From: Alcaligenaceae bacterium
GTDB lineage: Bacteria; Pseudomonadota; Gammaproteobacteria; Burkholderiales; Burkholderiaceae_B
Reading direction: 5' to 3'
Length of the DNA: 35,931 bases
Assembly (NCBI GenBank): GCA_013205565.1
Contig: JABMMM010000187.1
Coordinates: 1 to 35,931, forward strand
Below are positions 2,501 to 21,619 of this stretch, in pieces. The notes beneath the pieces are model-generated. The model saw nothing but the letters and a program-made list of their open reading frames with translations. It was not told the DNA's origin and searched no databases. Numbering within the stretch: position 1 is the first letter of the stretch; each line of letters starts with the position of its first letter. A program made the position numbers and the translations under genes.

Positions 2501-2501
2501 C

Positions 2502-5980: not shown

Positions 5981-6069
5981 GCTAAGTATCCAAATTGTAG
6001 GAACATACCCCACTGACTGTTAACGTGTTGGTAATAAACGTGCTGAGCGACTTGTATTGCGGTGACGTC

Positions 6070-7263
6070 TCAGTGATGAACAACGCTCGGGATGACGGTG
6101 GCAGGAGGCGTATTGCGGCTGCGCCCACAGCGTACCAAGCCATCAATCATCACCATGCCAATGCCAGGTATATCGCCAAGTTTGACGCTGTCGAGTAGGT
6201 CGCGCCCCGCGGTGTGTTGTGCGCGATCCATAAACACTAAATCGGCTGCGCGTCCAGGCTCAATCAGGCCGCAGTTTAAATCACGCATGCGTGCGGTGTT
6301 GCCCGTGGCAAAACAGAATACCAATTCAGGGGGGATGTTGCCCAGGCTTGAAAGCAAGGCGATCATGCGCAAAATACCCAGAGGCTGTACGCCAGAGCCT
6401 GCGGGCCCGTCGGTACCCAAAATGACTCGATGCGGGCACTTCAGTTGCAAAGCCGCTTGCGCTGCAGCGATCGCGATTTTTTCGTTACCGTTGTGTACGA
6501 TCTCGATACCGCGTGTGGATTTTTCACACAGTTCACAGACATGTGCTTCAGAGAGCGACGTGTGACCGCCGTTGATGTGACCGATAATATCGGCGTCGGC
6601 CTCAAGGACCACATCTTTATCGATCAAGCCAGAGCCAGGGATCGAGGGGCCGCCCGTGTGGATGGTGCTTTGAATGCCGTATTTGCGCGCCCACGCTACC
6701 ATTTTTGCGGCTTCTTCGCCTGCCTTGACTGAACCCAAGCCCACTTCACCTAACAGCTTGACGCCGGCCTCAGCTAATTCTTTAAAATCTTGTTCGACCA
6801 TACCCTGTTCGATGACCGGTGCACCCGCTAAGACTTTGACGCCACCCGGGCGAAAGTTATCAAACGCACGCTGCGCTGTGATGGCAAGTGCTTTGAGGCC
6901 AACGATATCCTTAGGCCGGCCAGGCAAGTGCACCTCGCCCGCAGAAATCATTGTGGTGACACCGCCATTGAGCGTCGACTCGATCCAGCCGATTTGATTT
7001 TGGCGCGGTGTCCAATCGCCAAACACAGGATGCACATGGCTATCAATCAAGCCGGGTGCCACGCACGTGTTGTGCGCGTCAATGGTTGCTTTGGCATGAG
7101 AGATATCGCAGTCTTTTTCTTTACCGACTGCCACAATCAACCCATCGTTGATCACAATCGTATCCGCAGACAGGATCGGTTGGTCTAGATCGCCTGACAA
7201 AAGCAAACCAATGTTTTTAATAACGACTTTGCCTGATTTTTCGCTTGCTAGAACTTCTGCCAT
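6070..7263 (-). CDS. Enamidase-like amidohydrolase (1,4,5,6-tetrahydro-6-oxonicotinate ring opening)
   Basis: A 397-residue metal-dependent amidohydrolase that resembles Eubacterium barkeri enamidase along its length as I recall that sequence: IKNIGLLLSGD at the start, GGVTTMISAGE, HLPGRPKD, and SRNTPPA near the end. Enamidase hydrolyses 1,4,5,6-tetrahydro-6-oxonicotinate to 2-formylglutarate and ammonia using a binuclear metal site. Visible metal ligands are His76 and His78 (SHVHP), Glu173 (GEVGLG, the likely bridging glutamate), His202 (IHTGG), His229 (GHINGGH) and Asp285 (GTDGPAGSG). An AGGAGA ribosome-binding site lies 6 bp before the ATG. It is the last gene of fpr-tetR-enamidase, divergent from the reductase that would make its substrate. 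A related dihydropyrimidinase-like activity cannot be excluded without assay. Confidence 0.87.
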   Translation of the reverse strand: MAEVLASEKSGKVVIKNIGLLLSGDLDQPILSADTIVINDGLIVAVGKEKDCDISHAKATIDAHNTCVAPGLIDSHVHPVFGDWTPRQNQIGWIESTLNGGVTTMISAGEVHLPGRPKDIVGLKALAITAQRAFDNFRPGGVKVLAGAPVIEQGMVEQDFKELAEAGVKLLGEVGLGSVKAGEEAAKMVAWARKYGIQSTIHTGGPSIPGSGLIDKDVVLEADADIIGHINGGHTSLSEAHVCELCEKSTRGIEIVHNGNEKIAIAAAQAALQLKCPHRVILGTDGPAGSGVQPLGILRMIALLSSLGNIPPELVFCFATGNTARMRDLNCGLIEPGRAADLVFMDRAQHTAGRDLLDSVKLGDIPGIGMVMIDGLVRCGRSRNTPPATVIPSVVHH

Positions 7264-7295
7264 GCTGATCTCCTGGATAACTCAAGCACCACGAT

Positions 7296-7961
7296 TTAAC
7301 GGACCACAGTTCGTTGCACCGCATCGACAACAAACGCTTCCCACTGTTTGAAAATGACTGGTGCTTCGAGATTTTCGCCTAAAAAGGCGGACAACGTGAA
7401 GCGATTTGACTGATAAAAATAACCTAGAGCGGCGATCATCATGTACAGATCGCGCGAGGACAGGTCTTTTCTAAAGACTCCTTGTTCGACGCCGCAAACC
7501 AAGACCTGATCGACCACGCCAATTGCAGGCGAAGAATATTCGCGGGCCTTGCTCGATTTTGCAATATGCTTGCCGCCGTGTAGGTTCTCGCTGTTTAACA
7601 GCGTCACAAATTCTGGATTTTTTTTGTAATACTGCAAAATGAATTGCACTACTTGTTTTAGCGCGACTAAAGGTTGTGTGGTGTCGAGTTTGAGTGCAGC
7701 TTCGGCATCGTTAAAGCGCCTGTAGGTCTCTTCAAGCGCCGCCACAAACAAGCCTTCTTTGTTGCCAAAGTAGTAATAGATCATGCGATCGTGCGAGTTG
7801 GCGGCTTTCGAGATCTGATCAATGCTGCCGCCGTCTAAGCCATGCTTGGCGAAGATTTTGATGGCAGCGCGCAAGATGTTCTCGCGCGTGGTTTCCGCCG
7901 AGCGTTCTCTGGCCCCTGTTTGTCGCGGCGACTTAATGGGTGTCGGCGCGGTGGGACTCAT
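7296..7961 (-). CDS. TetR-family transcriptional regulator of the catabolic locus
   Basis: A 221-residue regulator. The N-terminal TetR helix-turn-helix runs over about residues 24-70 (ENILRAAIKIFAKHG, IDQISKAAN, YYYFGNKEGLFVAAL). The C-terminal ligand domain (about 85-215) is of the RutR-like kind, with LNSENLHGGKHI and IGVVDQVLVCGVEQGVFRKD. The start codon overlaps the fpr stop as ATGA, so it is translationally coupled to fpr. The most likely job is repression of both divergent operons through the paired dyads at 8823-8860, relieved by nicotinate or a pathway intermediate. Target and ligand are inferred from position only. Confidence 0.88.
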   Translation of the reverse strand: MSPTAPTPIKSPRQTGARERSAETTRENILRAAIKIFAKHGLDGGSIDQISKAANSHDRMIYYYFGNKEGLFVAALEETYRRFNDAEAALKLDTTQPLVALKQVVQFILQYYKKNPEFVTLLNSENLHGGKHIAKSSKAREYSSPAIGVVDQVLVCGVEQGVFRKDLSSRDLYMMIAALGYFYQSNRFTLSAFLGENLEAPVIFKQWEAFVVDAVQRTVVR

Positions 7962-8731
7962 TGTTCGACGAAAGCCCGTTCAATCACATAGTCGCCTGGT
8001 TTGGTGGTGTTACCTTCGTTAAAGCCGCGCTGCTCGAGCATGGTCTTTAAATCGCGCAATAAGCCGGGGCTGCCGCAAATCATGATGCGGTCTTGCAAGC
8101 GGTCTAAAGCAGGCAGGGCTAGGTCTTTAAAGAGCTTTTCGTTTTCGATCAGGGTAGTGATCCGGCCCATTTGTTTATATTGCTCACGCGTGACGGTTGG
8201 GTAGTAGCGTAACTGTTTAGTGACCATTTCACCTAAAAATTCGTGTTGCGGAAGTTCTTGTGTCAGGTAATCATGGTAGGCGAGTTCGGCGACCTCACGC
8301 ACCGAATGCACCAAAATGACCTCTTCAAATTTTTCGTAGGTTTCGGGGTCACGGATCACGCTTAAAAAGGGTGCCAGCCCCGTGCCAGACGCAAACATAT
8401 ACAAGCGTTTGGCCGGTAACAGATAATCAATCAGCAGCGTGCCGGTGGGTTTGCGGCCCACCACGATTGAATCACCGACCTTGATGTGTTGCAGCTTTGA
8501 GGTGAGCGGGCCGTTTTCGACCTTGATGCTTAGAAACTCAAGGTGCTCTTCGTAATTGGCACTCACAATACTGTAGGCGCGTAACAGCGGTTTGTGATTG
8601 ACTCGCAGTCCGATCATGGTGAAGTGTCCGTTACTAAAACGTAAAGACGGATCGCGGGTGGTGGTGAAGCTAAACAGGCCCTCAGTCCAGTGGTGTACGG
8701 ATAAAACGGTTTCTTCGTTAAAGGCGCTCAT
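7958..8731 (-). CDS. fpr: Ferredoxin/flavodoxin-NADP+ reductase
   Basis: A 257-residue FAD enzyme that passes electrons between NADPH and ferredoxin or flavodoxin. The FAD-binding RAYSI motif is in the first domain, TGTLLIDYLLPA links the domains, and SGTGLAPFLSVIRD and ICGSPGLLRDLK form the NADP domain; the end IERAFVEQ is typical of bacterial Fpr. The start at 8731 (MSAFNEETVLSVHHWT) matches the family N-terminus. The longer frame to 8839 would run past the predicted minus-strand promoter. In this locus it is the first gene of the enamidase transcript and is divergent from the 6-hydroxynicotinate reductase gene, an enzyme known as ferredoxin-dependent, so it may supply its electrons. It could instead be the cell's general Fpr. 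Confidence 0.9.
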   Translation of the reverse strand: MSAFNEETVLSVHHWTEGLFSFTTTRDPSLRFSNGHFTMIGLRVNHKPLLRAYSIVSANYEEHLEFLSIKVENGPLTSKLQHIKVGDSIVVGRKPTGTLLIDYLLPAKRLYMFASGTGLAPFLSVIRDPETYEKFEEVILVHSVREVAELAYHDYLTQELPQHEFLGEMVTKQLRYYPTVTREQYKQMGRITTLIENEKLFKDLALPALDRLQDRIMICGSPGLLRDLKTMLEQRGFNEGNTTKPGDYVIERAFVEQ

Positions 8732-8807
8732 GGTCGGGTAGGGGTCAGATAAATTGAAAGTAGGGGCCGCTCCAACAAATACATTGCGAGCTTGCGGAGG
8801 ATGCATT

Positions 8808-8836
8808 AAATTAAACAATAAATGTAGTGAATGCAA
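8808..8836 (-). promoter_or_regulatory. Predicted promoter of the fpr-tetR-enamidase operon
   Basis: On the minus strand TTGCAT (8836-8831), a 17-bp spacer and TAATTT (8813-8808) make a plausible sigma-70 promoter about 75 bp before the fpr start. The -35 hexamer lies inside the left dyad at 8823-8838, so a bound repressor would cover it. Found by eye only. Confidence 0.45.
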
Positions 8837-8838
8837 CA
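8823..8838. promoter_or_regulatory. Left operator-like dyad
   Basis: TGTAGTGAATGCAACA is an imperfect inverted repeat and matches the right-hand dyad at 13 of 16 positions. Centre-to-centre spacing is 22 bp, about two DNA turns, so bound proteins would sit on one face. It overlaps the predicted minus-strand promoter. The likely ligand is the TetR protein encoded at 7296-7961. Confidence 0.6.
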
Positions 8839-8844
8839 CTAAAT

Positions 8845-8860
8845 TGTAGCAAATGCTACA
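8845..8860. promoter_or_regulatory. Right operator-like dyad
   Basis: TGTAGCAAATGCTACA is a perfect 6-4-6 inverted repeat in the 198-bp divergent gap between fpr and the 6-hydroxynicotinate reductase gene. It is probably the main regulator site controlling the plus-strand catabolic operon. I saw no convincing -35/-10 pair for the plus strand. Confidence 0.65.
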
Positions 8861-8929
8861 TTAAATGTTAGCCTTGTGTTGTAATTTAACCAACGATTAA
8901 AAGGCAATAAGCCTTCAAACCGCCGCGAC

Positions 8930-10519
8930 ATGACCGAACACACAAAAACCGACGGGCTGTCTGCACAGCAGTCCGAAACAGAGAAAGAGGCGACTGCGGG
9001 AGTGTCGGCAGGGCAGTCGCGCGCCTCAGGCGCAGTCAAGATTGAATGCAACGCGTGTCCAGTGTTGTGCCAGATCAGCGCCGGGCGCACAGGCGCCTGC
9101 GATCGGTATGCCAACCAAGAGGGAGTTTTGATTCGGGTCGACCCCGTGGTGGTGCTCAAGCGCGCCTTGCAGTCGGCTGAGCCTACCTTAGTGCCCTTTG
9201 CGCCCAGTGCCTCTGACGACGCGTGGGGCGGGGATCTGATGCACACCAATGAGGTCTTCATCACGGGCGTGGGATCGTCAACGACCTACCCAGATTACAA
9301 GCCAGCGCCGTTTATTGTGGGCTCGCAAATAGACGGCGTCGATATGGTGACCGTCGTGACCGAAGGTATCTTTAGTTACTGCAGCTTAAAAGTCAAAATT
9401 GACACTGACCGCTATTTGGGACCAGAGCAGGCCAACGTGCTGTGCCGCGGCGAGGTGGTTGGCCACGTCACGACCGCCGAGTACGGTTCGCAGATGCTCT
9501 CTTTAGGCGGCGTTCATCACTTAACCGGTGGCAGCAAAAAAGAAGGCCGCATCACAATGGAACTGATGCAGGCGCTTGGTAACAAAGCGGCGGCTGAGTT
9601 GAGTATCGAGGGTGGTGCCACCCTTGTGATTCAGGCTGGGTGTGCGCCCATTGTCAATGGCGTGGTCGAACAGCGCATGCGGGTGGGTTGCGGCTCGGCC
9701 GCGATTGGTATTTTTGCGCAACAATTTTTTGAGCTGGCCGATGAGGTCGTGGTGGTTGACGATCACATCACAGGTGTCTTGACCGAACACCAGGCGGGGT
9801 GTTGCTTGAACATGCCCGCCTCGGGGATCAGCATACGCGGGCGCCGCTCGACGCCTGGACGATACTTTCAAGTGGCGAACCCTGGTACCGGCTGGGGGGG
9901 AACAGATATTTCAGACCCCTTGGCGATCATTGAAAAGTGGGATCCTAAGCGCGCCTGGCCCGGTTTGCGCTTACTCATGACCTCGACCACCGGCGAGCAT
10001 GCTGCCTGGTATGTGCTCGATGAACAGCTCAGTCCCGTGCAGCAGCCGATGCCCGAGGCGGTGCAGGACGTGATCGACCGTATTGGCGAAAACTGCGAAC
10101 CATCGCTAACTACCGTATTGTTTTTAGGTGGGGCCGGAGGCAGTTTGCGAGCGGGTGTCACCGACAACCCAGTGCGACTCACGCGTGCAATTAAAAAAGC
10201 CTTGGTCAATGTGACCTGCGGCGGTGCACCCGCTTATGTCTGGCCCGGAGGGGGGATCACTGTCATGGTCGATGTTTTGCGCATGCCCGACAACAGCTTT
10301 GGCACGGTGCCCACGCCGGCGATCGTCGCGCCCTTTGAATTCAGCATGCGTGCCGACGAATTCAAGCGGCTCGGAGGGCATATCGCTTATGTGCGGCCGC
10401 TGCAAGAGGTGTTGCAGCGTGGCGCCTGGCATCACGATGGCGCACCCACTGCGCGCAAGTGGGTGGTACAGCCAACAGAAAACGCGTGGCCTTTGGGCCA
10501 GCCACCCCTGCTTGGATAA
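8930..10519 (+). CDS. 6-hydroxynicotinate reductase-like iron-sulfur protein
   Basis: A 529-residue protein resembling proteins annotated as 6-hydroxynicotinate reductase, the ferredoxin-dependent enzyme that reduces 6-hydroxynicotinate to 1,4,5,6-tetrahydro-6-oxonicotinate. A low-complexity polar N-terminus (1-37) precedes a four-cysteine motif, Cys40, Cys43, Cys47 and Cys57 (IECNACPVLC, TGACDRYAN), likely to bind a [4Fe-4S] cluster. The rest has conserved Gly-rich and Cys motifs (IQAGCAPIVNG, MRVGCGSAAIG, HQAGCCLNMPASG, FLGGAGGSLRAGVT). No signal peptide, so cytoplasmic. It is the first gene of the plus-strand operon and 5 bp before the next gene. No good Shine-Dalgarno precedes ATG 8930, so a start further downstream but before Cys40 is possible. 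Family assignment is from memory of sequence; activity is inferred. Confidence 0.82.
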   Translation: MTEHTKTDGLSAQQSETEKEATAGVSAGQSRASGAVKIECNACPVLCQISAGRTGACDRYANQEGVLIRVDPVVVLKRALQSAEPTLVPFAPSASDDAWGGDLMHTNEVFITGVGSSTTYPDYKPAPFIVGSQIDGVDMVTVVTEGIFSYCSLKVKIDTDRYLGPEQANVLCRGEVVGHVTTAEYGSQMLSLGGVHHLTGGSKKEGRITMELMQALGNKAAAELSIEGGATLVIQAGCAPIVNGVVEQRMRVGCGSAAIGIFAQQFFELADEVVVVDDHITGVLTEHQAGCCLNMPASGISIRGRRSTPGRYFQVANPGTGWGGTDISDPLAIIEKWDPKRAWPGLRLLMTSTTGEHAAWYVLDEQLSPVQQPMPEAVQDVIDRIGENCEPSLTTVLFLGGAGGSLRAGVTDNPVRLTRAIKKALVNVTCGGAPAYVWPGGGITVMVDVLRMPDNSFGTVPTPAIVAPFEFSMRADEFKRLGGHIAYVRPLQEVLQRGAWHHDGAPTARKWVVQPTENAWPLGQPPLLG

Positions 10520-10524
10520 GCGAG

Positions 10525-11409
10525 ATGGAGCCGACCTTACAAGAACTGCCGCAAGGGCGCCGCCATTTTCAGCACGGACCCATTGACATCATCGCGTACG
10601 CTGAAGGTGACGCGGCGAGTGTTGCGCGCGCACACGAGGCAGCCTGGCACAGATTTGGTCAAATCCTGCCCGAGTTAGTGTGCGAACTCACTGAGCTTCG
10701 CAGGCCGGTGCTCTGCCCGGTCGCGTTAAAGGGCCCCATCGCGCAGTTGATGTGGCAAGCGTGCAAGGACTGCTTAATCGAAGCGGATTCCGAGGCGTTT
10801 TTAACTCCCATGGCTGCAGTGGCGGGTTCGGTTGCGCAAGATTTAAGCGCCTGTTATCACGTGCCGGGGATCCGACGCGCTTGGCTCAACAATGGTGGGG
10901 ATATCGCGTTGTATCTCACCGAAGATACCGCTGTTTCGGTGGGGCTGTTTGCTGATCTGGCGCGCTTTGACGAGACCCAACTCGTGGCTGGCGTACAGAC
11001 CGATGCCGTGTTTGAGGTCAGACATGGAATGGGGATTGGCGGTATCGCAACGAGCGGCTGGCGCGGTAGAAGTTTTTCGTTAGGGATCGCCGATAGCGTG
11101 ACCGTCTTTGCCGCGAGTGCGTCGCAGGCTGACGCAGCCGCAACCGTGATTGCCAATGCGGTCAACGTGGTGGATGCGCGCATCGGTCGCGAACCTGCAG
11201 CGACGCTCAAAGACGACTCTGACCTCGGGCAGCGTCTGGTGACAGTGGCCGTTCCCGAGCTCAGCCAAGAACAAGTCCGCAGTGCGCTTGAGGCGGGTCT
11301 AAAAAAAGCACACACGCTCAGGCAGAACGGTTTAATCTGTGCCAGTGTTTTAAGTTGTCAGGGGTGGTTTGTCAGTACCGAAACCACTCGCATCCAACGT
11401 CTGTCCTAG
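10525..11409 (+). CDS. UPF0280 family (ApbE-like fold) protein
   Basis: A 294-residue protein of the UPF0280 family, which shares a fold superfamily with the flavin transferase ApbE; its biochemical role is not established. Family-like motifs are FQHGPIDIIAY near the start, MAAVAGSVAQ, WLNNGGDIALYL, GIGGIATSGWRGRSFSLGIADSVTVFA and DAAATVIANAVNV. The start at 10525 was chosen because it lies just after the upstream stop; a longer frame from 10459 would overlap the reductase. Its place between the 6-hydroxynicotinate reductase gene and an AA_synth gene suggests a part in the reductive step, perhaps handling a flavin cofactor, but this is only inference. Confidence 0.82.
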   Translation: MEPTLQELPQGRRHFQHGPIDIIAYAEGDAASVARAHEAAWHRFGQILPELVCELTELRRPVLCPVALKGPIAQLMWQACKDCLIEADSEAFLTPMAAVAGSVAQDLSACYHVPGIRRAWLNNGGDIALYLTEDTAVSVGLFADLARFDETQLVAGVQTDAVFEVRHGMGIGGIATSGWRGRSFSLGIADSVTVFAASASQADAAATVIANAVNVVDARIGREPAATLKDDSDLGQRLVTVAVPELSQEQVRSALEAGLKKAHTLRQNGLICASVLSCQGWFVSTETTRIQRLS

Positions 11410-11416
11410 GGTCACT

Positions 11417-12001
11417 ATGCAAGCAAATATTCGTAGAATCGTGGTGCAAGTCGACGAGGTCTTGAGCGAAAACGGTCAGGTCGTCGCGCCTGCGACACGG
11501 CGCGCGTTAGCGATGGCTGTCATCGAGAACCCCTATGCTGGGCGTTACGTTGAAAATCTAGACGAACTCATCGCCATCGGCGAGGAATTGGGTGCCTTGC
11601 TTGGCCAACGCTGTGTGCAAGCCTTAGGCATCCAGCCCGCTCAAGCGCAAAGCTACGGCAAGGCGGCCATCGTAGGCGAGGCGGGTGAACTTGAACACGC
11701 GGCCGCACTTTTGCATCCAAAATTGGGCGCGCCCTTGCGCATGGCGGTAGAAAAAGGCGCGGCACTTGTGCCGTCAAGCAAAAAAATGGGCGTGATGGGG
11801 ACGGCGATTGATGTGCCGCTTGGGCATAAAGACGCGGCCTTCGTGCGTAGTCATTTTGACGCGATCGAGGCGCGCGTCACTGACGCACCACGCGCGAACG
11901 AAATCGTTGTCTGTGTGGCGGTAACCGACAGTGGGCGTCCGAAGCCCCGTGTGGGTGGTTTGCAGCATAATGAAATGATCGGAAAAGATGGTTTGCGTTA
12001 A
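11417..12001 (+). CDS. AA_synth (DUF1185) family protein
   Basis: A 194-residue cytoplasmic protein of the family called amino acid synthesis (PF06684/DUF1185), found in Bordetella relatives and alphaproteobacteria; its function is not known. Family-like segments are IRRIVVQVDEVLSENG, AVIENPYAGRYVENL, YGKAAIVGEAGELEHAAALLHP, PSSKKMGVMGTAIDVPLGHKDA and VVCVAVTDSGRPKPRVGG. ATG 11417 was chosen because the longer frame from 11369 overlaps the UPF0280 gene; only 7 bp separate the two genes. Operon position implies a role in the same ring-degradation pathway, possibly an auxiliary hydrolase or isomerase. I cannot assign a reaction. Confidence 0.82.
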   Translation: MQANIRRIVVQVDEVLSENGQVVAPATRRALAMAVIENPYAGRYVENLDELIAIGEELGALLGQRCVQALGIQPAQAQSYGKAAIVGEAGELEHAAALLHPKLGAPLRMAVEKGAALVPSSKKMGVMGTAIDVPLGHKDAAFVRSHFDAIEARVTDAPRANEIVVCVAVTDSGRPKPRVGGLQHNEMIGKDGLR

Positions 12002-12052
12002 TCCTTTATCTTTTGAAAGCTAGGGCTCAAGCCCTTTTAACCGGAGAGTAAG

Positions 12053-13267
12053 ATGAAACAGCACCGACTCAGTCGCTTTGCAAAACTCAGCGTCGCAGTA
12101 ATGACCTTGCTCACTGCCTCGGCAGGTGTGTTGGCGCAAGGTGTCATCAAAATTGGCGAGATCAATAGCTACAAAGCCCAACCCGCGTTTCTTGAGCCCT
12201 ATAAAAAGGGCATGGAACTCGCAATCGAGCAAATTAATGCCGCAGGTGGCTTGAACGGCAAAAAAGTCGAGCTCATCACACGCGACGACAACGCGAACCC
12301 GGGTGACGCTGTGCGGGTCGCCGAAGAATTAGTATCGCGCGATCAGGTTGACGTCTTGACCGGTTCATTTTTGTCGCACATCGGTTTGGCGCTGACTGAT
12401 TTCTCGAAACAAAAGAAGATGTTTTTTTTGGCCAGCGAACCATTGACTGACAAGATTGTGTGGCAAAACGGCCATCGCTATACCTTTAGATTGCGCACCT
12501 CAACGTACATGCAGGTGGCGATGCTTGTGCCAGACGCGGTTGCCATGAAGAAAAAACGCTGGGCGATCGTGTATCCCAATTACGAGTACGGCCAGTCAGC
12601 AGTGGCGAGTTTCAAAGCCTTACTCAAAGCCGCACAACCCGATGTCGAGTTTGTAGCTGAACAGGCACCACCGTTGGGAAAACTTGATGCGGGCAGCGTT
12701 GTGCAAGCTTTGGCTGACGCCAAGCCCGATGCTATTTTCAACGTCTTGTTCGGCGCAGACTTGGCCAAGTTCGTACGAGAAGGCAACACCCGCGGTTTGT
12801 TTAAAGACCGTGAAGTGGTGAGCTTATTAACCGGTGAACCCGAATACCTTGATCCACTTAAAGACGAGACCCCGAATGGCTGGTTAGTCACCGGATATCC
12901 CTGGTATGGCATCAAAACGCCAGAGCACGCCGCGTTTTTGAAAGCGTATCAAGACAAGTTTAAAGACTACCCACGTTTAGGTTCGGTGGTGGGCTACAGC
13001 TCCATCATGTCGCTCGCAGCTGGCATCAAAAAAGCGCAAAGTACCGAGACCGAAAAGCTTGTGACAGCCTTTAAAGGCTTGAGCTTGATGACCCCTTTTG
13101 GCCCGATTACTTACCGTCCCGAGGATCATCAGTCCACCATGGGTAGTTTTGTTGGCCGCACCAAAAACGACGGCGGCAAAGGGGTCATGGTTGATTTTCG
13201 TTTCTTGGACGGCGCTCAGTTCTTACCTTCAGCTGCCGAGGTCAAAAAACTTCGTCCAGCAGAATAA
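12053..13267 (+). CDS. HAAT/Liv-type ABC transporter substrate-binding protein
   Basis: A 404-residue periplasmic binding protein of the type I fold (Peripla_BP_6, LivK-like). A signal peptide with basic start (MKQHRLSRFAK), hydrophobic core and a likely cut after GVLA at about residue 28 directs export. The mature part starts VIKIGEINSYK and has the family segments GMELAIEQINAAGGLNGKKVEL, DDNANPGDAVRVAEEL and WAIVYPNYEYGQSAV. A GGAGAG ribosome-binding site lies about 6 bp before the ATG, in a 51-bp gap after the AA_synth gene. The two genes after it encode the fused permease and ATPase. From context the ligand is probably nicotinate or another N-heterocyclic acid rather than a branched-chain amino acid. 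Confidence 0.92.
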   Translation: MKQHRLSRFAKLSVAVMTLLTASAGVLAQGVIKIGEINSYKAQPAFLEPYKKGMELAIEQINAAGGLNGKKVELITRDDNANPGDAVRVAEELVSRDQVDVLTGSFLSHIGLALTDFSKQKKMFFLASEPLTDKIVWQNGHRYTFRLRTSTYMQVAMLVPDAVAMKKKRWAIVYPNYEYGQSAVASFKALLKAAQPDVEFVAEQAPPLGKLDAGSVVQALADAKPDAIFNVLFGADLAKFVREGNTRGLFKDREVVSLLTGEPEYLDPLKDETPNGWLVTGYPWYGIKTPEHAAFLKAYQDKFKDYPRLGSVVGYSSIMSLAAGIKKAQSTETEKLVTAFKGLSLMTPFGPITYRPEDHQSTMGSFVGRTKNDGGKGVMVDFRFLDGAQFLPSAAEVKKLRPAE

Positions 13268-13299
13268 TGCTTCGCGCTTGATTGCTGGTTGAGTTCTTG

Positions 13300-15192
13300 A
13301 TGGATTTATCTGGCTTTATCGTTCAGTTGCTCAATGGCCTGGCTGGGGCTTCGTCTCTCTTTTTGGTCTCGGCCGGGCTTTCACTGATTTTTGGTGTTAC
13401 GCGAATCGTGAACTTTGCTCACGGTTCTTTTTTTATGGTGGGCATTTATCTTGCCTACACCTTGGTCACACGCTTTGCTGACACGCTCGGCTTTTGGCCG
13501 GCGCTGCTAAGCGCGGCAGTGCTGGTGGGTATGTTGGGTGCTCTGGTCGAGATCACCTTGATGCGCCGCATCTATCGTGCGCCCGAGCTTTTTCAGTTGT
13601 TAGCGACTTTTGCGCTGGTCTTAGTGATCAAAGACGCGGTGCTCTGGCTCTGGGGGCCCGAAGAGCTTCTTGGACCGCGCGCACCGGGTCTAAAAGCGGC
13701 GGTGCAAATTTTAGGGCGTAGTTTTCCGACCTATGATTTGTTTTTAATTGTTGTGGGCCCCGTTTTATTGGGCTTGCTTTGGTTGTTACTCACGCGTACC
13801 CGCTGGGGAACGTTTATTCGGGCTGCGACACAAGATCGCGAGATGGTGGCGGCCCTTGGGGTCAATCAAGCTTGGCTATTTACCAGTGTGTTCGCATTGG
13901 GCGCTCTGTTGGCAGGTTTAGGCGGCGCCCTGCAATTACCGCGTGAACCCGCCAGCCTTGAAATGGACTTGAACACCATTGGCGCGGCCTTTGTGGTGGT
14001 CGTGGTGGGGGGGATGGGGTCGATTCCTGGCGCCTTCATCGCGGCGCTATTGATCGCTGAACTCAAAGCCATTTGTATTTGGTTGGGCGTCGTGAATATA
14101 TTTGGGACTGAGCTCTCATTTTCAAAACTCACGCTTGTTGTTGAGTTTTTGGTGATGGCGTTTGTGCTGGTGCTACGTCCTTGGGGTTTGCTGGGCAAGC
14201 CACAACCTCTGTCACGCCACGCTGCGCACACCGAGGCGCCCTTGCTTGCGCCTACACGCATGACCCTGGCGCTGCAACTTGGGGCGGTGGCGTTGCTGGT
14301 GTTACTACCCTGGTTAACCTCGGCCTCGCCTTACTTCACCGTGTTAAGCATTGATCTGCTGGTGGCTGTGCTGTTTGCCACAAGCCTGCATTTCATTATG
14401 GGTCCCGGCGGCATGCACTCGTTCGGACATGCAGCGTACTTTGGCTTAGGTGCGTACGGCGCCGCTTTATTATTTAAAGCACTCGGTTTGCCGATGGAGT
14501 TTGCGCTGGTGCTCGCGCCACTTGTGGCTGGTTTGGGCGCTGTATTGTTTGGTTGGTTCAGCGTGCGTTTATCGGGTGTGTATTTGGCTATGCTGACGCT
14601 CGCTTTTGCTCAAATCACGTGGGCGGTGGTGTTTCAGTGGGACGCCTTCACCGGCGGGAGCAACGGCTTGACGGGGGTATGGCCAGCCCCGTGGTTGGCG
14701 AACAAACAACGCTATTACTTTTTGACGCTGACCTGCGTGGTGCTAAGCGTTTGGTGTCTCAGGCGCCTGTTGTACGCCCCACTGGGTTACGCCATGCGCG
14801 CAGGTCGTGATTCACCGATGCGAGCCGATGCAATTGGTATCGATGTAAAACGCGTGCAGTGGGTAGCGTTTGTCGTGGCAGGTGTTTTTGCCGGTGTCGC
14901 TGGTGCGCTTTTCGCTTTTTCAAAAGGCAGTATTTCGCCCGAGACCTTGCACGTCAGCCGCTCAGTCGATGGCTTAGTGATGGTTTTGCTCGGAGGCATA
15001 CAAACCTTGGCGGGCCCCATCGTGGGGGCAATCAGTTTTACCTGGTTGCATGACGCGATCGCGCGCAATACAGAGTACTGGCGCGCAATGCTGGGCGGCA
15101 TCATTCTGTTTCTTGTCTTATTGTTTCCGCAGGGCTTGGCTGGTTTTACCCGCAGTGTCAGCCAGCGCTTTTCTCCTAAGGGGCAAACGTGA
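13300..15192 (+). CDS. Fused LivH-LivM type ABC transporter permease
   Basis: A 630-residue inner-membrane protein in which the two permeases of a HAAT system are joined. The LivH-like half (about 1-300) has LIFGVTRIVNFAHGSFFMVG and VVVVGGMGSIPGAFIAALL. A short polar linker (PQPLSRHAAHTEAPLLAP) leads to the LivM-like half (about 325-630) with MGPGGMHSFGHAAYFGLGAYG, AMRAGRDSPMRADAIGID and VLLGGIQTLAGPIVGAI. The ATG at 13300 gives a normal N-terminus; an in-frame TTG at 13282 would add six residues. The end overlaps the ATPase gene by 4 bp (GTGA), so the two are translationally coupled. Substrate is assigned by context only. Confidence 0.93.
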   Translation: MDLSGFIVQLLNGLAGASSLFLVSAGLSLIFGVTRIVNFAHGSFFMVGIYLAYTLVTRFADTLGFWPALLSAAVLVGMLGALVEITLMRRIYRAPELFQLLATFALVLVIKDAVLWLWGPEELLGPRAPGLKAAVQILGRSFPTYDLFLIVVGPVLLGLLWLLLTRTRWGTFIRAATQDREMVAALGVNQAWLFTSVFALGALLAGLGGALQLPREPASLEMDLNTIGAAFVVVVVGGMGSIPGAFIAALLIAELKAICIWLGVVNIFGTELSFSKLTLVVEFLVMAFVLVLRPWGLLGKPQPLSRHAAHTEAPLLAPTRMTLALQLGAVALLVLLPWLTSASPYFTVLSIDLLVAVLFATSLHFIMGPGGMHSFGHAAYFGLGAYGAALLFKALGLPMEFALVLAPLVAGLGAVLFGWFSVRLSGVYLAMLTLAFAQITWAVVFQWDAFTGGSNGLTGVWPAPWLANKQRYYFLTLTCVVLSVWCLRRLLYAPLGYAMRAGRDSPMRADAIGIDVKRVQWVAFVVAGVFAGVAGALFAFSKGSISPETLHVSRSVDGLVMVLLGGIQTLAGPIVGAISFTWLHDAIARNTEYWRAMLGGIILFLVLLFPQGLAGFTRSVSQRFSPKGQT

Positions 15193-16757
15193 GCCTGCTG
15201 GTGGTAAAGGACCTGGGCAAGTCGTTTGGTGGCGTCAAGGCTGTTGACGGGATTTCGTTCGAGATTGACGCGGGCGAACTCTTGGCGCTGATCGGTCCGA
15301 ACGGTGCCGGCAAATCAACTACCTTTAACATGGTCAACGGACAACTCCAGGCGGAGCGTGGATCGATACAGTTTGACGGACAAGAACTGGTTGGACTCGC
15401 CCCTAGGCAGATTTGGCGCTTGGGCGTAGGCCGAACTTTTCAAATTGCCGAAACCTTTTCTTCGCTGACGGTTCTTGAAAATGTACAAATGGCCTTGCTG
15501 TCGCACGCGGGGCAGGTGTTTTCTTTTTTTAAACCAGCGCGAGCGCATGAACGCCAGCGCGCGCTTGAGTTGCTTGATCAAGTTGGTATGGCTTCGCAAG
15601 CAGAGCGCCCCTGCAGCGCGTTAGCCTACAGCGATGTTAAGCGCGTAGAGCTTGCCATTGCGCTGGCAAATTGCCCACGCTTATTGTTGATGGACGAGCC
15701 CACTGCAGGGATGGCACCCAAAGAGCGTCACGCCTTGATGACCCTGACTAAAAAACTAGTCGTCGAGCAAAAGATTGCTGTGCTGTTCACTGAGCACAGC
15801 ATGGATGTAGTGTTCGCGCATGCCGATCGCTTGATTGTTTTAGCGCGAGGCCGCCTGATTGCGCAGGGCGAGGCCCAAGACATTCGCAGACACCCCAAGG
15901 TTCAAGAAGTATATTTTGGTGCTGGCACGACCTTCGAGCAAGCAGTGGGCGCTGCACCGGTCTTAAACAACACGCTCGCAGCTCAGGGTAGCGCAGTCAG
16001 TGCCCAAACCGCGCTCGAGCCCGAGGTCATGGCATCCCCGCTTTTGTCGGTTGCAAGATTGAACGCCTGGTACGGTGCCGCCCATATTTTGTTTGACGTG
16101 AGTTTTCAGGTCAGGCGTGGTGAGGTCGTAGCTTTGATGGGACGCAATGGCGCGGGCAAATCGACCACCATGAAAGCGTTGATGGGCTTGCTAGAAGCGC
16201 GGAGCGGCACCGTGCAGTTTATGGAACGCGATATTTCTAAAGAGGCGGCGCATCGTATTGCGGCCAGTGGCCTGGGCTATGTGCCTGAAGACCGCCGAAT
16301 CTTTACCGATTTAACCGTGCTAGAAAATCTTGAGGTGGGGCGCCAGCCGTCTCGGCACTGGCCGGATGGCTCGCCTGCTCCTGCCTGGACCATTGAGCAA
16401 TTATTTACCTTGTTTCCTAATCTGGGCGAGATGCCCCGACGACCCGGCGGTCAGATGAGTGGCGGTGAGCAACAGATGCTAACGGTCGCGCGCAGTCTGA
16501 TGGGCAATCCCTATCTGGTGCTGCTTGATGAACCCTCTGAGGGCGTTGCTCCGGTGATCGTCGAGCAGATGGTACAAATGATTTTGGCTTTAAAAAAACA
16601 AGGCGTGAGTATTTTGTTGTCTGAGCAAAACTTACACTTCGCACGTTTGGTGTGTGACAGAGCCTACGTGCTTGAAAAAGGGCAGATCCGTTTTAGTGGC
16701 AGTATGGCCGAGCTCGAGGCCAATGAGCACGTCCGACAAACCTACTTGAGCGTCTGA
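15189..16757 (+). CDS. Fused LivG-LivF type ABC transporter ATPase
   Basis: A 522-residue cytoplasmic protein with two ABC ATPase domains in tandem, starting at a GTG coupled to the permease stop. Domain 1 (about 1-245, LivG-like) has Walker A GPNGAGKST and Walker B LLLMDEPTAGMAPKE. Domain 2 (about 280-522, LivF-like) has Walker A GRNGAGKST, signature MSGGEQQ and Walker B LVLLDEPSEG. An Ala/Thr-rich linker separates them. The signature of domain 1 reads LAYSD at residues 145-149, with Ser148 where the family has an almost invariant Gly (LSGGQ type), so one composite ATP site may be weak. It is the last transporter gene, 5 bp before the dehydrogenase small subunit. Confidence 0.93.
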   Translation: MSLLVVKDLGKSFGGVKAVDGISFEIDAGELLALIGPNGAGKSTTFNMVNGQLQAERGSIQFDGQELVGLAPRQIWRLGVGRTFQIAETFSSLTVLENVQMALLSHAGQVFSFFKPARAHERQRALELLDQVGMASQAERPCSALAYSDVKRVELAIALANCPRLLLMDEPTAGMAPKERHALMTLTKKLVVEQKIAVLFTEHSMDVVFAHADRLIVLARGRLIAQGEAQDIRRHPKVQEVYFGAGTTFEQAVGAAPVLNNTLAAQGSAVSAQTALEPEVMASPLLSVARLNAWYGAAHILFDVSFQVRRGEVVALMGRNGAGKSTTMKALMGLLEARSGTVQFMERDISKEAAHRIAASGLGYVPEDRRIFTDLTVLENLEVGRQPSRHWPDGSPAPAWTIEQLFTLFPNLGEMPRRPGGQMSGGEQQMLTVARSLMGNPYLVLLDEPSEGVAPVIVEQMVQMILALKKQGVSILLSEQNLHFARLVCDRAYVLEKGQIRFSGSMAELEANEHVRQTYLSV

Positions 16758-16762
16758 GAGGC

Positions 16763-17275
16763 ATGGTGAATCCGCCCGAATCGTCACCTTGCAGCCTGCT
16801 GGTCAATGGTCAGCAGCACGATCTGTTTTTATCAGGCGAAGCCTCGCTCATGCACGTGCTGCGTAACGATCTGGCCTTAAATAGCCCTAAGTACGGGTGT
16901 GGCCTAGGCCAGTGCGGTGCCTGTACGGTGTTAATTGACGGCGTTGCGGCGCGTGCGTGTGTAGTGCCAGCCCAAGAAGTGCAAGGCCGTGCGATCACCA
17001 CGCTTGAAGGCCTGGGTTCGCGCACTCAATTGCATCCTGTGCAGCAAGCGTTTGTCGACGAACAGGCCGCGCAATGTGGCTACTGCTTAAGCGGCATGAT
17101 TCTGATGACGGTCTCTTTGTTGGCGCACACCCCTGAGCCAAGTGAGATCGAGATTCGTAACGCCCTCGCCGGTAATTTTTGTCGCTGCGGCACGCACGTT
17201 GAAATCCTAAGTGCGGTTAAGCGTGCAGCCCTGCTCATGCAAAAAGCAAAAGAGCACGCCCATGGCACGCCTTAA
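16763..17275 (+). CDS. Molybdenum hydroxylase 2Fe-2S subunit (nicotinate dehydrogenase small subunit-like)
   Basis: A 170-residue electron-transfer subunit of the xanthine dehydrogenase family, similar in layout to NicA. The plant-type [2Fe-2S] domain carries Cys46, Cys51, Cys54 and Cys66 (YGCGLGQCGACTV). The helical second domain carries Cys105, Cys108, Cys140 and Cys142 (CGYC and NFCRCG). It passes electrons from the molybdenum site of the large subunit to the haems. The end overlaps the large subunit by 14 bp. The probable reaction is nicotinate hydroxylation at C6, given the 6-hydroxynicotinate reductase gene in the same operon; other N-heterocycles are possible. Confidence 0.92.
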   Translation: MVNPPESSPCSLLVNGQQHDLFLSGEASLMHVLRNDLALNSPKYGCGLGQCGACTVLIDGVAARACVVPAQEVQGRAITTLEGLGSRTQLHPVQQAFVDEQAAQCGYCLSGMILMTVSLLAHTPEPSEIEIRNALAGNFCRCGTHVEILSAVKRAALLMQKAKEHAHGTP

Positions 17276-20200
17276 CGACTTGCGTACGCGCGCAGATTTT
17301 TTAAAGGCGACCGGCGTCTTGCTGGTCGTGCGCGACCCTGCGCCCGCGCCCATGCCTGCAGTCGGCCAACCGGTCGCCGTTCCCGGCAACCCCGCCGAGG
17401 GTGTCGAACTTTTGTTGTCGCTTTGGCAAGATGGTCGAGTCACCGCCTTACACGGCCACGTTGATCTCGGGACTGGCTTACAAACTGCTTTTGCCCAAAT
17501 CGTTGCCGAAGAGCTTGATGTCGCACTTGAGCAAGTCGACGTGATCCTCGGTGACACCGCAACCGTGCCTAATCAAGGGCCCACCATTGCAAGTGGTTCG
17601 ATACAAAACCATGCAGCACCCCTGCGAGCCGCCGCTGCTCAGGCACGAAAGTATTTGCTTGAATTGGCGTCCACACGCTTGGGCGTGCCAGTCGGTCAAC
17701 TCACGGTCGAGGCCGGCGTGGTGTCAAACCGGGGCTCAAATCCAGACCCGAACTCAGGTTCAGGCTTAACGCTTCGCTATGCTGATTTAGTGGCTGGGCA
17801 ACGCATTCATCTTAAGCTTGAGTTGACCACGCCGGTCAAAGACCCCGCGACCTACCGCGTGGTCGGGCAATCCTCACCACGAGTCGACATCCCCGCCAAG
17901 GCGACTGGCGAGTTGGTGTTCGTGCACGATATGCGACTGCCTGGCATGTTGCACGGTCGGGTGATTCGTCCACCGTATGCGGGTGCCGATCACGGCGACT
18001 TTATTGGTAACTTGCTTGAGTCAGTCGACGAGTCGTCGATCGCGCATATTCCGGGCGTTCGCGCGGTCGTGGTGATTCGGGATTTTGTTGGTGTGGTGGC
18101 AGAGCGTGAAGAGTTTGCTGAATTGGCGGCCAACACCTTGAGCGTGCATTGGAAACCTTGGGCCGGCTTACCCGATCTGTCAAACATCGAACAAGCGTTG
18201 CGTAACAACCCAGCGACGCCGCGTCAGCTTGTCGATGAAGGCGATGTCGATCAGGCGCTTGCGCAGGCCGCGCAGTCGATGCCCCGCACCTACATCTGGC
18301 CCTATCAGATGCACGCGTCGATCGGCCCCTCGTGCGCCGTGGCAGAGTTCAACGCTGATCCGACCGCGCCGTTTGCTTTAACCGTTTGGGCGGGCACGCA
18401 AAACCCTCATGTGTTGCGTGCAGACTTGGCGCGCCTGACCGCGCTGCAAGATACCGCGATTGAAATCGTACGAATGGAAGCCTCGGGGTGCTATGGGCGC
18501 AACGGTGCGGACGACGTGGCGGCAGATGCTGTATTGCTGGCGCGTGCGGTCGGTGCGCCAGTGCGCGTGCAGCTGACACGTGAGCAAGAAAATCTTTGGG
18601 AGCCCAAGGGCGCGGCGCAATGGATGGATGTTCGCGGTGGCTTGCACGCAGACGGCTCGATCGCGGCCTATGATTTTTCAACGTCGTATCCTTCGAACGG
18701 TGCACCCACGCTTGCATTGCTGCTTACTCGTACGATTGAACCTAACGCACAAGCGTATGAAATGGGTGATCGCACTGCGCGTCCACCTTACACCTTGCAA
18801 AATTTGCGCGTCACGGTCAATGATATGCCGCCCATTTTGCGCGCCTCATGGTTGCGTGGCGTGTCGGCGATGCCTAATTCGTTTGCTCACGAATCCTACA
18901 TCGATGAGCTTGCGACGGCCGCTGGGGTCGATCCTCTGACTTTTAGGTTGCGCTACCTCGATGATCCGCGTGCGCGCGAATTATTACAAGCGACGGCAAC
19001 TAAAGCCGGTTGGAAAATACACGAGCAGCCGCAGCAGCAGGGCGCAGAGGGCGATATTTTGCACGGTCAGGGCATCGCGTGGGCGCGCTATGTTCACAGC
19101 AAGTGGCCCGGGTTCGGTGCCGCGTGGGCCGCCTGGATCGCGGATGTGGAAGTCAACAAGCGCACAGGTGAGGTTCACGTCAAACGGGTGGTGGTGGGTC
19201 ACGATGCGGGCTTAACGATTAATCCTGCCGGTGTTGAACATCAAATTCATGGCAACGTGGTGCAGACCACCAGTCGCACCCTGCTTGAACAAGTACCAAC
19301 CGAACGCGCGCGCAACACCGTGGCAACCCGTGAATGGGGCTCGTATCCAATTTTGAGTTTTAGGCAGGTGCCTGTCATCGAAGTGATGCAGATGCCCCGT
19401 CACAACGAGCCCGCGCTTGGAGTCGGTGAGTCAGCGTCGGTGCCTGGCACGGCTGCGATTGCTAATGCAATTTTCGATGCAACGGGTGTGCGTTTTAGGC
19501 AGCCGCCTTTTACCCCTGAGATTGTGCGCGCGGCTTTGAATCCGTTGCTGTATCCAGACGACTCAGCCACGCACGCCTCTGGCAAGCCTCAATTGGCGGC
19601 TCAAGCCTCAGATAAACTTCAGGTGGCCTCGCAAACAAGTGACCCGCAGCTAACAGGTCCCGCGCGCCAACAGGCAGATCACGCCGACGCACGTTGGCCG
19701 CGGCCGCGTGCGTGGTGGTTGCGCGCAGCGGCGTTGACGGGGGCGTTCGGCGTTACGCTGTTGGGCGCGACTGGGTCACTGTTTGGTCAGCGCACGTCGC
19801 TGGCGCCCCTCACGCCACAAACCACGCAACAAACCACAACCTATTCGGCGGCAACGCTTGGGCGTGGTCGTGAGTTAGCAGCGCTAGGGAATTGCGTGAC
19901 CTGTCATACCAGCGCGCAAGGTAAACCGAATGCTGGAGGCCTCGGAATTCAAACCCCTTTTGGCACGGTCTATAGCACCAACCTGACCCCCGACACACAA
20001 ACGGGCATCGGCCTGTGGTCGCAGCAAGCGTTTAATCGTGCCATGCGTGAAGGCATCTCACGCGATGGTCATCACTTGTATCCGGCGTTTCCGTACACCT
20101 CGTTTACGCGCACGAGCGACGAAGATCTGACCGCGCTGTACGGGTGGCTGATGTCGCAAGAGCCTGTGCGCCAGGCAACGCCTGAAACCAAGCTGGCGTT

Positions 20201-21065
20201 TCCATTTAGTCTGCGTCCGCTCATGGCTTTTTGGAATGCGCTGTACCTCACGCCTGGGCCCGCCGCCCCGCCAACACAGACCGAAGTCGATCGCGCACCT
20301 GCCTGGTTGCGCGGCGAATATCTGGTGAATGGGTTGGGGCACTGTTCGGCCTGCCACACCTCGCGTGACGCCTTGGGCGGCGAACGCTCGGGGCTGGCCT
20401 ATTTGAGTGGCGCCACCATTGAGGGCTGGCAGGCTCCTGCACTCAACGCGCGTTCGCCTAGCCCGGTGCCTTGGACTGAAGCCGCGTTCTATGATTATTT
20501 GCGCAACGGCCACAGCGCCCAACACGGCAGTGCCTCGGGGCCGATGGCACCGGTTGTCAGGCAATTAGCGCAAGTGCCCAACGCAGATATTGCTGCCATG
20601 GCGCATTACCTGGCGTCGTTTCAAGAGCCAATGTCGGCGCAGGGCTTAACAGAGCAAACGACTGCAGCGGCGCAGATCGCCCAAACTTACGTTGCGCAGG
20701 CGGCGGCACGCGAGCCCCTGCTACTGGGCCCCGCACAGCGCATGTTTCAGGCCGCCTGTGGGTCGTGTCACCACGACGGCGCTGGCCCGCGTTTGCTTGG
20801 AGTCAATATCCCGCTTGCGCTCAGTACCGGCATGCACAGCGCGCAACCTGATAACGTGATTCGCGTGGTGCTTGAAGGGATCCGCAAGCCTGCCAGTGAG
20901 CAAATCGGATTTATGCAAGGTTTTGCTAAACAATTTGACGACCAGCAATTAAGTGAGCTGTTGACTTTTATGCGCAGTCGTTTTGCCCCAACTCAGCCAC
21001 CCTGGCAAAACCTTGAAGAGAAGATTGGGGCAATCCGCATGTCGCCAAGCTTGCATTTACCGTAA
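17262..21065 (+). CDS. Molybdopterin-binding dehydrogenase large subunit fused to triheme cytochrome c (NicB-like)
   Basis: A 1267-residue NicB-like protein. Residues 1 to about 760 are a molybdenum hydroxylase of the isoquinoline 1-oxidoreductase type, with [12 protein letters not shown] near the start, an internal hammerhead part ([20 protein letters not shown]), [19 protein letters not shown], and the catalytic glutamate Glu723 in GVGESAS. A polar repeat linker (about 772-801) leads to one membrane helix at about 820-842, preceded by arginines, so the N-terminal part should face the cytoplasm. Three haem c motifs follow: CVTCH at 878, CSACH at 1028 and CGSCH at 1166, which must lie in the periplasm. 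The N-terminus [14 protein letters not shown] recalls a Tat signal that has lost its second arginine. ATG 17262 was preferred to the in-frame start at 17211. Electrons would pass to a terminal oxidase. Confidence 0.9.
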
Positions 21066-21079
21066 AGTTTGCTCACAAT
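21051..21079 (+). promoter_or_regulatory. Possible greA promoter upstream of the leader terminator
   Basis: TTGCAT (21051-21056), a 17-bp spacer and CACAAT (21074-21079) form a weak sigma-70-like promoter overlapping the end of the dehydrogenase gene. It is placed so that its transcript would run through the hairpin at 21097. This is an eye match only. Confidence 0.25.
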
Positions 21080-21096
21080 AGCAATATTGTTGATCA

Positions 21097-21132
21097 CCCC
21101 GGTTCTGACCCGAGCCGGGGTTTTGCTTTTTT
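21097..21132 (+). terminator. Strong rho-independent terminator in the greA leader
   Basis: CCCCGGTTC, a 6-base loop and GAGCCGGGG give a 9-bp stem (one G-T pair), followed by TTTTGCTTTTTT. It should end the catabolic operon transcript. The T tract runs directly into the greA ribosome-binding site (GGAAAA), so the same element may also attenuate greA. Confidence 0.88.
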
Positions 21133-21142
21133 GGAAAACACC

Positions 21143-21619
21143 ATGGCGACTATTCCACTTACCGTGCGCGGGGCCGAGCGCTTGCAAGCCGAGCTGCAGC
21201 GGCTTAAGCAGGTCGATCGCCCCGCGGTCATTAGCGCCATTGCTGAAGCGCGTTCGCACGGCGATTTGTCTGAAAACGCCGAGTACGATGCAGCGCGTGA
21301 GCGACAAGGCTTTATCGAAGGGCGAATTGCCGAGCTCGATGGCACGCTTTCAAATGCCCAACTCATTGAACCGAGCAGCATTGATGCCGATGGCCGTATC
21401 GTGTTTGGCGCAACCGTTGAGATCGAAGATCTTGAGTCGGGTGCCAAAGTCACTTACCAAATCGTTGGTGATGTTGAGGCCGATATTCGTTCGAATTTAA
21501 TTTCGGTGTCTAGCCCTGTGGCGCGTGCGTTGATTGGCAAGTATGAGGGCGATGTCGTCGAAGTGAAGGCCCCGGCTGGGTCACGCGAATATGAAATCAT
21601 TAGTATCAAATACGTGTGA
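21143..21619 (+). CDS. greA: Transcription elongation factor GreA
   Basis: A 158-residue factor that enters the RNA polymerase secondary channel and triggers cleavage of backtracked RNA. The N-terminal coiled coil has the typical acidic tip ([20 protein letters not shown]), and the C-terminal FKBP-like domain has [15 protein letters not shown] and [24 protein letters not shown] 21143 gives the usual [12 protein letters not shown] start; an upstream ATG at 21131 lies in the T tract of the terminator. Ribosome-binding site GGA at 21133. Length is normal for the family. Confidence 0.97.

Follow-up and report, generated by a model that had tools for sequence, protein, structure and literature searches.

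A probable nicotinate-catabolism gene cluster of the Azorhizobium type in an Alcaligenaceae bacterium and the pairing of its Hnr-like protein with UPF0280

Which pathway is encoded by the gene cluster at positions 6070-21065 of contig JABMMM010000187.1 from an Alcaligenaceae bacterium (assembly GCA_013205565.1), and what do its less familiar members do there? The window analysed is the full 35,931-nt stretch of this contig, and the proteins were identified from a listing of open reading frames (ORFs) together with Pfam and NCBIfam scans (Table 1). An earlier note on this DNA had described a NicAB-like hydroxylase with haems, a 6-hydroxynicotinate reductase-like protein (Hnr), an enamidase-like protein (Ena), a transporter and a regulator. 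All of them were found at or very near where that note had placed them, and family scans confirmed both the transporter (12053-16757, with the permeases fused and the ATPases fused) and the TetR-type regulator. Left unmentioned were a UPF0280/COG2122 protein, an AA_synth protein and a ferredoxin-NADP reductase-like protein (FNR). Our analysis indicates that the cluster very probably represents nicotinate catabolism of the Azorhizobium type, comprising the NicAB, Hnr and Ena steps, control by TetR at its operators and maturation of Hnr by UPF0280. The pathway type is already known, and the value of the finding is the lead to UPF0280.

In the proposed route, nicotinate would enter through an ATP-binding cassette (ABC) importer and be hydroxylated by NicAB to 6-hydroxynicotinate, with the electrons passing via the cytochrome c domain of the enzyme to the respiratory chain. 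Hnr would reduce the ring to 1,4,5,6-tetrahydro-6-oxonicotinate, with electrons probably drawn from NADPH through FNR, and Ena would convert this compound to 2-formylglutarate and ammonia. The TetR protein would act at the tandem operators that lie in the divergent promoter region, and UPF0280, as the strict partner of Hnr, would most likely serve as its maturation factor. The analysis itself shows which genes and motifs are there, how the genes co-occur and what fold is predicted; the substrates, the electron flow, the regulation and the chemistry of UPF0280 we infer.

The best PDB match of Ena is the Eubacterium barkeri enzyme 2VUN (E 6.1e-111), whereas the solved protein that follows is a hydantoinase with an E of just 1.7e-05; for Ena, the best match is thus not to a pyrimidine or hydantoin enzyme, the outcome that the earlier note had named as contrary to its reading. 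The alignment to 2VUN shows the HxH motif, two more histidines and the aspartate expected for an amidohydrolase metal site, which we take to be the metal ligands. The name NicAB for the genes at 16763-21065 is assigned by architecture, since a 2Fe-2S subunit and a molybdopterin subunit with cytochrome c domains together constitute what we regard as the NicAB type; the haem-c motifs (CXXCH) of NicB are at residues 878, 1028 and 1166, and its solved matches include the nicotinate dehydrogenase subunits of E. barkeri (3HRD_B, E 9.3e-26; 3HRD_A, E 3.3e-12). The cluster shares features with two known systems. E. barkeri reportedly ferments nicotinate, and the predicted Hnr and Ena steps are like those of this fermentation; unlike in E. 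barkeri, a cytochrome-linked hydroxylase here replaces the four-subunit dehydrogenase, and no methyleneglutarate genes were recognised in the window. The nic cluster of Pseudomonas putida combines a NicAB-type hydroxylase with NicC and NicX. The hydroxylase architecture is shared, but no NicC/NicX-type gene was recognised in the present cluster, and the ring would be reduced rather than oxygenated.

How constant is this company of genes? A profile scan of genome contigs gave 595 candidate stretches, at least 591 of which encode Hnr relatives, and the best 80 were kept; the loci are partly non-independent (L038 and L199, for example, overlap in genome G317). Among these best 80 of at least 591 loci, UPF0280 is present at 79, AA_synth at 76, Ena at 67, NicA at 64 and FNR at 61, and the sole locus without UPF0280 (L070) is a 3,055-base contig. 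Within the best 80, 48 loci have 10 kb on each side; UPF0280, AA_synth and the permease occur at all 48, NicA at 47, Ena at 46, NicB and the binding protein at 38 each, and FNR at 35, with some of the absent NicB genes falling at the end of the analysed stretch. In 20 wider regions, UPF0280 was found in all, and AA_synth and a NicA-like gene in 18 each. Antisense ORFs obscured the search for more conserved neighbours; that search pointed to a nicotinamidase-like gene, which was then searched separately and found at 39 of the 109 Hnr loci searched (34 of them in the best 80 of at least 591), although two of the matches (L184, L192) are just 51-55% identical. One example scanned, the protein at 18724-19446 of L053, scored 182.6 against the NCBIfam nicotinamidase cut-off of 174; its N-terminus resembles a Tat signal by eye. 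The presence of this gene at so many Hnr loci supports nicotinate as the substrate. The route from NicAB through Hnr to Ena, as proposed in the earlier note, is thus the best reading of the genes and is strengthened by the nicotinamidase-like gene, but the formation of 2-formylglutarate is predicted from homology alone.

Could the substrate be another N-heterocycle and not nicotinate itself? Two plasmid loci carry hnr, UPF0280 and AA_synth beside genes of the acetophenone carboxylase type (L032) or the hydantoinase/oxoprolinase type (L033), with no Ena in either stretch, and these trios possibly serve other ring substrates. On this basis we regard the trio as a module, of which Ena and NicAB would mark the nicotinate version, and because the trio is also found without a nearby enamidase, the Hnr label alone is no proof of a nicotinate pathway. 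For the cluster in the window, however, a different heterocycle appears highly improbable, given the closeness of its Ena to the solved enamidase, the NicAB architecture at the locus and the nicotinamidase-like genes at related loci.

Several observations weigh against nicotinate catabolism and have to be set beside this evidence. Only seven cysteines are invariant in 29 aligned Hnr sequences, among them those of the motif Cys40-x2-Cys43-x3-Cys47-x9-Cys57 (CxxCxxxCx9C), and this number is too small for the one [2Fe-2S] and two [4Fe-4S] clusters reported for E. barkeri Hnr. The protein has no Pfam or NCBIfam family above cut-off and no credible PDB match. Its relatives on plasmids, to which it is 57-74% identical, are in several cases annotated as "6-hydroxynicotinate reductase" and in others as "hypothetical protein"; the name is taken from these annotated relatives and from the conserved cluster described in PMC3511419. 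A recognisable Ena is present in just 7 and NicB in 4 of the 20 wider regions, so that some Hnr-like proteins may use other substrates or have their remaining genes elsewhere, and FNR is lacking at 13 of the 48 loci with full flanks as well as in 18 of the 20 wider regions. The top solved matches of NicB are aldehyde dehydrogenase subunits (8GY3), above 3HRD, and NicB-like proteins are common on plasmids (1194 records matched, 263 of them covering 80% or more of the query at a single place); for these reasons nicotinate as the substrate of NicB is suggested by architecture and company. Finally, neither a nicotinamidase-like gene nor a gene for the use of 2-formylglutarate was identified within the window.

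For Hnr a structural model of medium confidence (pLDDT 73.1) was obtained. Foldseek returned no whole-fold match at E<=0.001 and VIA a maximal Z of 3.6 (T-protein 1WOO, model residues 151-238); for a model of this confidence, the missing match is no demonstration of a new fold. Residues 152-187 (window 9383-9490) gave a weak match to the C-terminal barrel of the glycine-cleavage T-protein in all 29 members (best E 5.7e-04; 0.0099 for the window protein), and the fold search indicates the same stretch. Hnr was also considered as a DUF39 homologue, which found no support: hmmscan with PF01837 matched none of the 29 members, and none of the 378 Pseudomonadota genomes searched has DUF39. A weak Hnr match in genome G006 is a RibD-like protein by sequence reading and was removed, leaving Hnr in 30 of 399 genomes of the order. 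Among the matches listed, the closest relatives of the window Hnr are from Alcaligenaceae and other Burkholderiales.

Are Hnr and UPF0280 ever found apart? In a sample of 398 Pseudomonadota genomes drawn evenly, with Hnr detected by the A1 profile and UPF0280 by its family cut-off, each protein was found in 32 genomes, and the two sets are identical. In all 32 genomes the two lie on the same contig and strand, with the matched stretches 18-501 bases apart. These genomes are related to one another and belong to 16 genera, so that a chance probability computed for the overlap exaggerates its weight; the counts include one genome with Hnr in two pieces (G414) and one with an internal stop in UPF0280 (G753), while weak UPF0280 matches under the family cut-off in G673 and G742 were left out. 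AA_synth is distributed more loosely, being present in 59 of the 398 genomes, namely 31 of the 32 Hnr genomes and 28 others. Among plasmid records Hnr was found in 26 and UPF0280 in 27, and all 26 Hnr records contain UPF0280. The extra record (L203, Hydrogenophaga BPS33) has repeated units with IS1071 and UPF0280, and no Hnr match was found on this plasmid. The pairing is newly found here and points to a function for the uncharacterised UPF0280; the accessible portions of the literature, including PMC5764234, PMC8238504, PMC11334425 and PMC12052999, contained no link between UPF0280/COG2122 and Hnr.

What kind of protein, then, is UPF0280? Its AlphaFold model (pLDDT 90.2) matched 2O34, a Desulfovibrio member of its own family, with a VIA Z of 20.4, and rows 2-20 were occupied by the flavin transferases ApbE, Ftp and FmnB (Z 14.0-17.1 over 205-222 residues); no unrelated protein appeared before urate oxidase at Z 7.5. 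Foldseek matched the model to 4IFW with E 8.6e-06 and a TM score of about 0.5. An hhalign comparison with an eight-sequence ApbE alignment gave a probability of 95.1 (E 3.3e-08, 97 columns) and paired GGD, ATSG and SVTV...ADAAAT with their ApbE equivalents, in contrast to a probability of 0.2 against Hnr. Both the fold and hhalign were needed for this link, because a PDB search with the UPF0280 profile gave 2O34 as its only credible match and no ApbE. The Pfam ApbE model matched 13 of 18 UPF0280 members at E<=1 (best 2.9e-07), but the window protein itself was not called (E 2; none at E<=1).

Over 136 sequences, GGD, ATSG and the Asp (1.00) and Thr (0.98) of ADAAAT are conserved, and the two latter residues are aligned by hhalign with the metal ligands of ApbE, both of which are therefore kept. 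These ligands are Asp284/Thr288 in the Treponema pallidum protein (PMC5655446) and D283 in Escherichia coli Ftp (PMC4767422). UPF0280 thus resembles ApbE/Ftp in its predicted fold, metal-ligand Asp/Thr, GGD and ATSG, but differs in that the loop bearing the catalytic His is missing, this residue falling in a gap of the hhalign alignment; the essential His257 of the Vibrio cholerae protein is described as absolutely conserved in PMC5655446. Because the catalytic His is absent, we describe UPF0280 as having an ApbE-like fold and do not class it as ApbE. No lipobox or signal peptide was evident by eye in UPF0280.

We propose that UPF0280 acts in the maturation of Hnr and perhaps attaches the flavin. 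In E. barkeri Hnr the flavin is reportedly bound covalently, and this provides the link from fold to function. That UPF0280 is the cytosolic counterpart of ApbE, a flavin transferase that covalently attaches flavin to Hnr, is in our view a real possibility, if somewhat short of an even chance. The fold of the model, the hhalign result, the Pfam matches of most members, the conserved motifs and the exclusive partnership with Hnr all argue for it, as does the result that Pfam ApbE had no match in the source draft genome (95.85% complete) or in G171. It is opposed by the gap at the catalytic His, by the failure of Pfam ApbE to call the window protein, by the presence of an ordinary ApbE in four of five other Hnr genomes tested (the fifth being G171), and by the absence of an [ST]GA[ST] motif from all 29 Hnr sequences. 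As this motif is missing and just seven cysteines are invariant, the cofactor content of Hnr may differ from that of the E. barkeri enzyme.

Alternatively, UPF0280 might deliver sulfur to Hnr or help to assemble its Fe-S clusters, as has been suggested for COG2122 with DUF39 and SepCysS. PMC5764234 describes COG2122 as working with DUF39 in a homocysteine pathway and, for the methanogen system with SepCysS, suggests persulfide modification. The invariant CxxCxxxCx9C of Hnr would suit such a role, and the homocysteine pathway resembles the present case in its need for a UPF0280/COG2122 protein alongside a partner. The systems differ in that partner, since DUF39 is absent from the Pseudomonadota genomes searched and Hnr has no PF01837 match. 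With a predicted fold of flavin transferases and no Cys among the conserved UPF0280 columns listed, we consider this explanation unlikely. Returning to flavin attachment, we tentatively suggest, at rather less than even likelihood, that flavin transferases of the ApbE fold have a second, cytosolic class in UPF0280/COG2122, dedicated to ring reductases of the Hnr type in Pseudomonadota and, if the idea is extended, to DUF39 proteins in methanogens and Desulfovibrio.

How might the cluster be regulated? Two 16-bp palindromes, TGTAGTGAATGCAACA and TGTAGCAAATGCTACA, lie 5' of hnr with their starts 22 bp apart. A palindrome pattern with two mismatches allowed has three matches at these two sites and nowhere else in the window, where 0.22 would be expected. 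A related strict pattern matches 34 of 252 loci; at 14 of these, which represent about 11 distinct places and include the window, there are two matches, always 22 bp apart. A looser scan, which had no shuffle control and in which some second sites matched weakly (at 10-12 of 16 bases), found two sites 22 bp apart in 11 of 13 hand-picked places, again counting the window, the exceptions being L043 and L108. The tandem palindromes are probably the TetR operator, to which binding is suggested by sequence.

Table 1. Features of the cluster at 6070-21065, with coordinates in the window
Feature	Coordinates	Strand	Evidence
Ena, predicted enamidase (1,4,5,6-tetrahydro-6-oxonicotinate hydrolase)	6070..7263	-	Amidohydro_1; 2VUN E 6.1e-111
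TetR-family regulator	7296..7961	-	TetR_N + TetR_C_29
Ferredoxin--NADP reductase-like protein (FNR)	7958..8839	-	NCBIfam PRK10926 147.4 bits, under its 390 cut-off
Tandem 16-bp palindromes, TGTAGTGAATGCAACA (8823-8838) and TGTAGCAAATGCTACA (8845-8860)	8823..8860		Probable TetR operator
Hnr, 6-hydroxynicotinate reductase-like, 529 amino acids	8930..10519	+	Plasmid relatives, neighbourhood, Cys motif
UPF0280/COG2122 protein, predicted ApbE-like fold	10525..11409	+	NCBIfam NF003322 above cut-off
AA_synth (DUF1185) protein	11369..12001	+	PF06684 E 3.9e-72
ABC importer substrate-binding protein	12053..13267	+	Peripla_BP_6
Fused ABC permease, LivH-LivM type	13282..15192	+	BPD_transp_2 in two stretches
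Fused ABC ATPases, LivG-LivF / UrtD-UrtE type	15189..16757	+	Two stretches, UrtE and UrtD models above cut-off
NicA-like [2Fe-2S] subunit	16763..17275	+	Fer2 + Fer2_2; Cys positions
NicB-like molybdopterin + tri-haem cytochrome c subunit	17262..21065	+	MoCoBD_1, MoCoBD_2, Cytochrom_C; three CXXCH

Judged from the sequence, the real starts of FNR and AA_synth are probably near 8731 and at 11417, respectively, and the residue numbering of UPF0280 starts at 10504, seven codons 5' of the ATG. The solved relatives of AA_synth, 2QTP and 3BYQ, are each labelled uncharacterised. AA_synth is a single gene in the window, whereas at many related loci its matches come as a tandem pair.

Flanking the cluster are a histidine-phosphatase-like gene (5330-6013, by sequence reading) and greA, the interval between them being 6013-21143. 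The distance from carB to greA is 18.6 kb here, compared with 1.6-6.7 kb in 12 relatives and less than 0.2 kb in two. In five other relatives carB was outside the fetched stretch; in two of them the phosphatase gene and greA are separated by about 7 kb, which indicates that this interval varies in length, though in the relatives examined it is shorter than here. Since none of 12 further members of the family that were listed had Hnr, horizontal gain of the cluster is likely. A CaiB/BaiF-type CoA transferase gene (2403-3689, by sequence reading) adjoins carB and has no match in the greA stretches of relatives; it was considered as a pathway gene and rejected, with no match in the ORFs of the 48 loci with full flanks.

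How far does the cluster go beyond what has been described? The earlier note had called the gene set poorly described, which does not hold, and had pointed to a similar scheme in Azorhizobium, which does: PMC3511419 reports that Azorhizobium, Bradyrhizobium, Rhodopseudomonas and strain SG-6C share a conserved cluster with the genes of the first three steps, including a transporter and two conserved proteins of unknown role, and states that SG-6C degrades nicotinate supplied as its only source of carbon. PMC9304392 also gives a summary of the route in E. barkeri and Azorhizobium. In view of the cluster already reported, the present one is a further case of a described kind, and it differs from those of Azorhizobium caulinodans and the others in PMC3511419 in that its nearest listed Hnr relatives are from Alcaligenaceae and other Burkholderiales.

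The finding carries a warning for annotation, in that "Hnr" as a label does not by itself imply nicotinate catabolism. Its main consequence concerns UPF0280/COG2122, whose function matters both for homocysteine synthesis and for ring reduction, and the one-to-one pairing with Hnr makes this function testable in easily grown aerobes. If UPF0280 were indeed a second class of flavin transferase, the covalent flavin of Hnr would be accounted for, and COG2122 would have a single function common to the two pathways.

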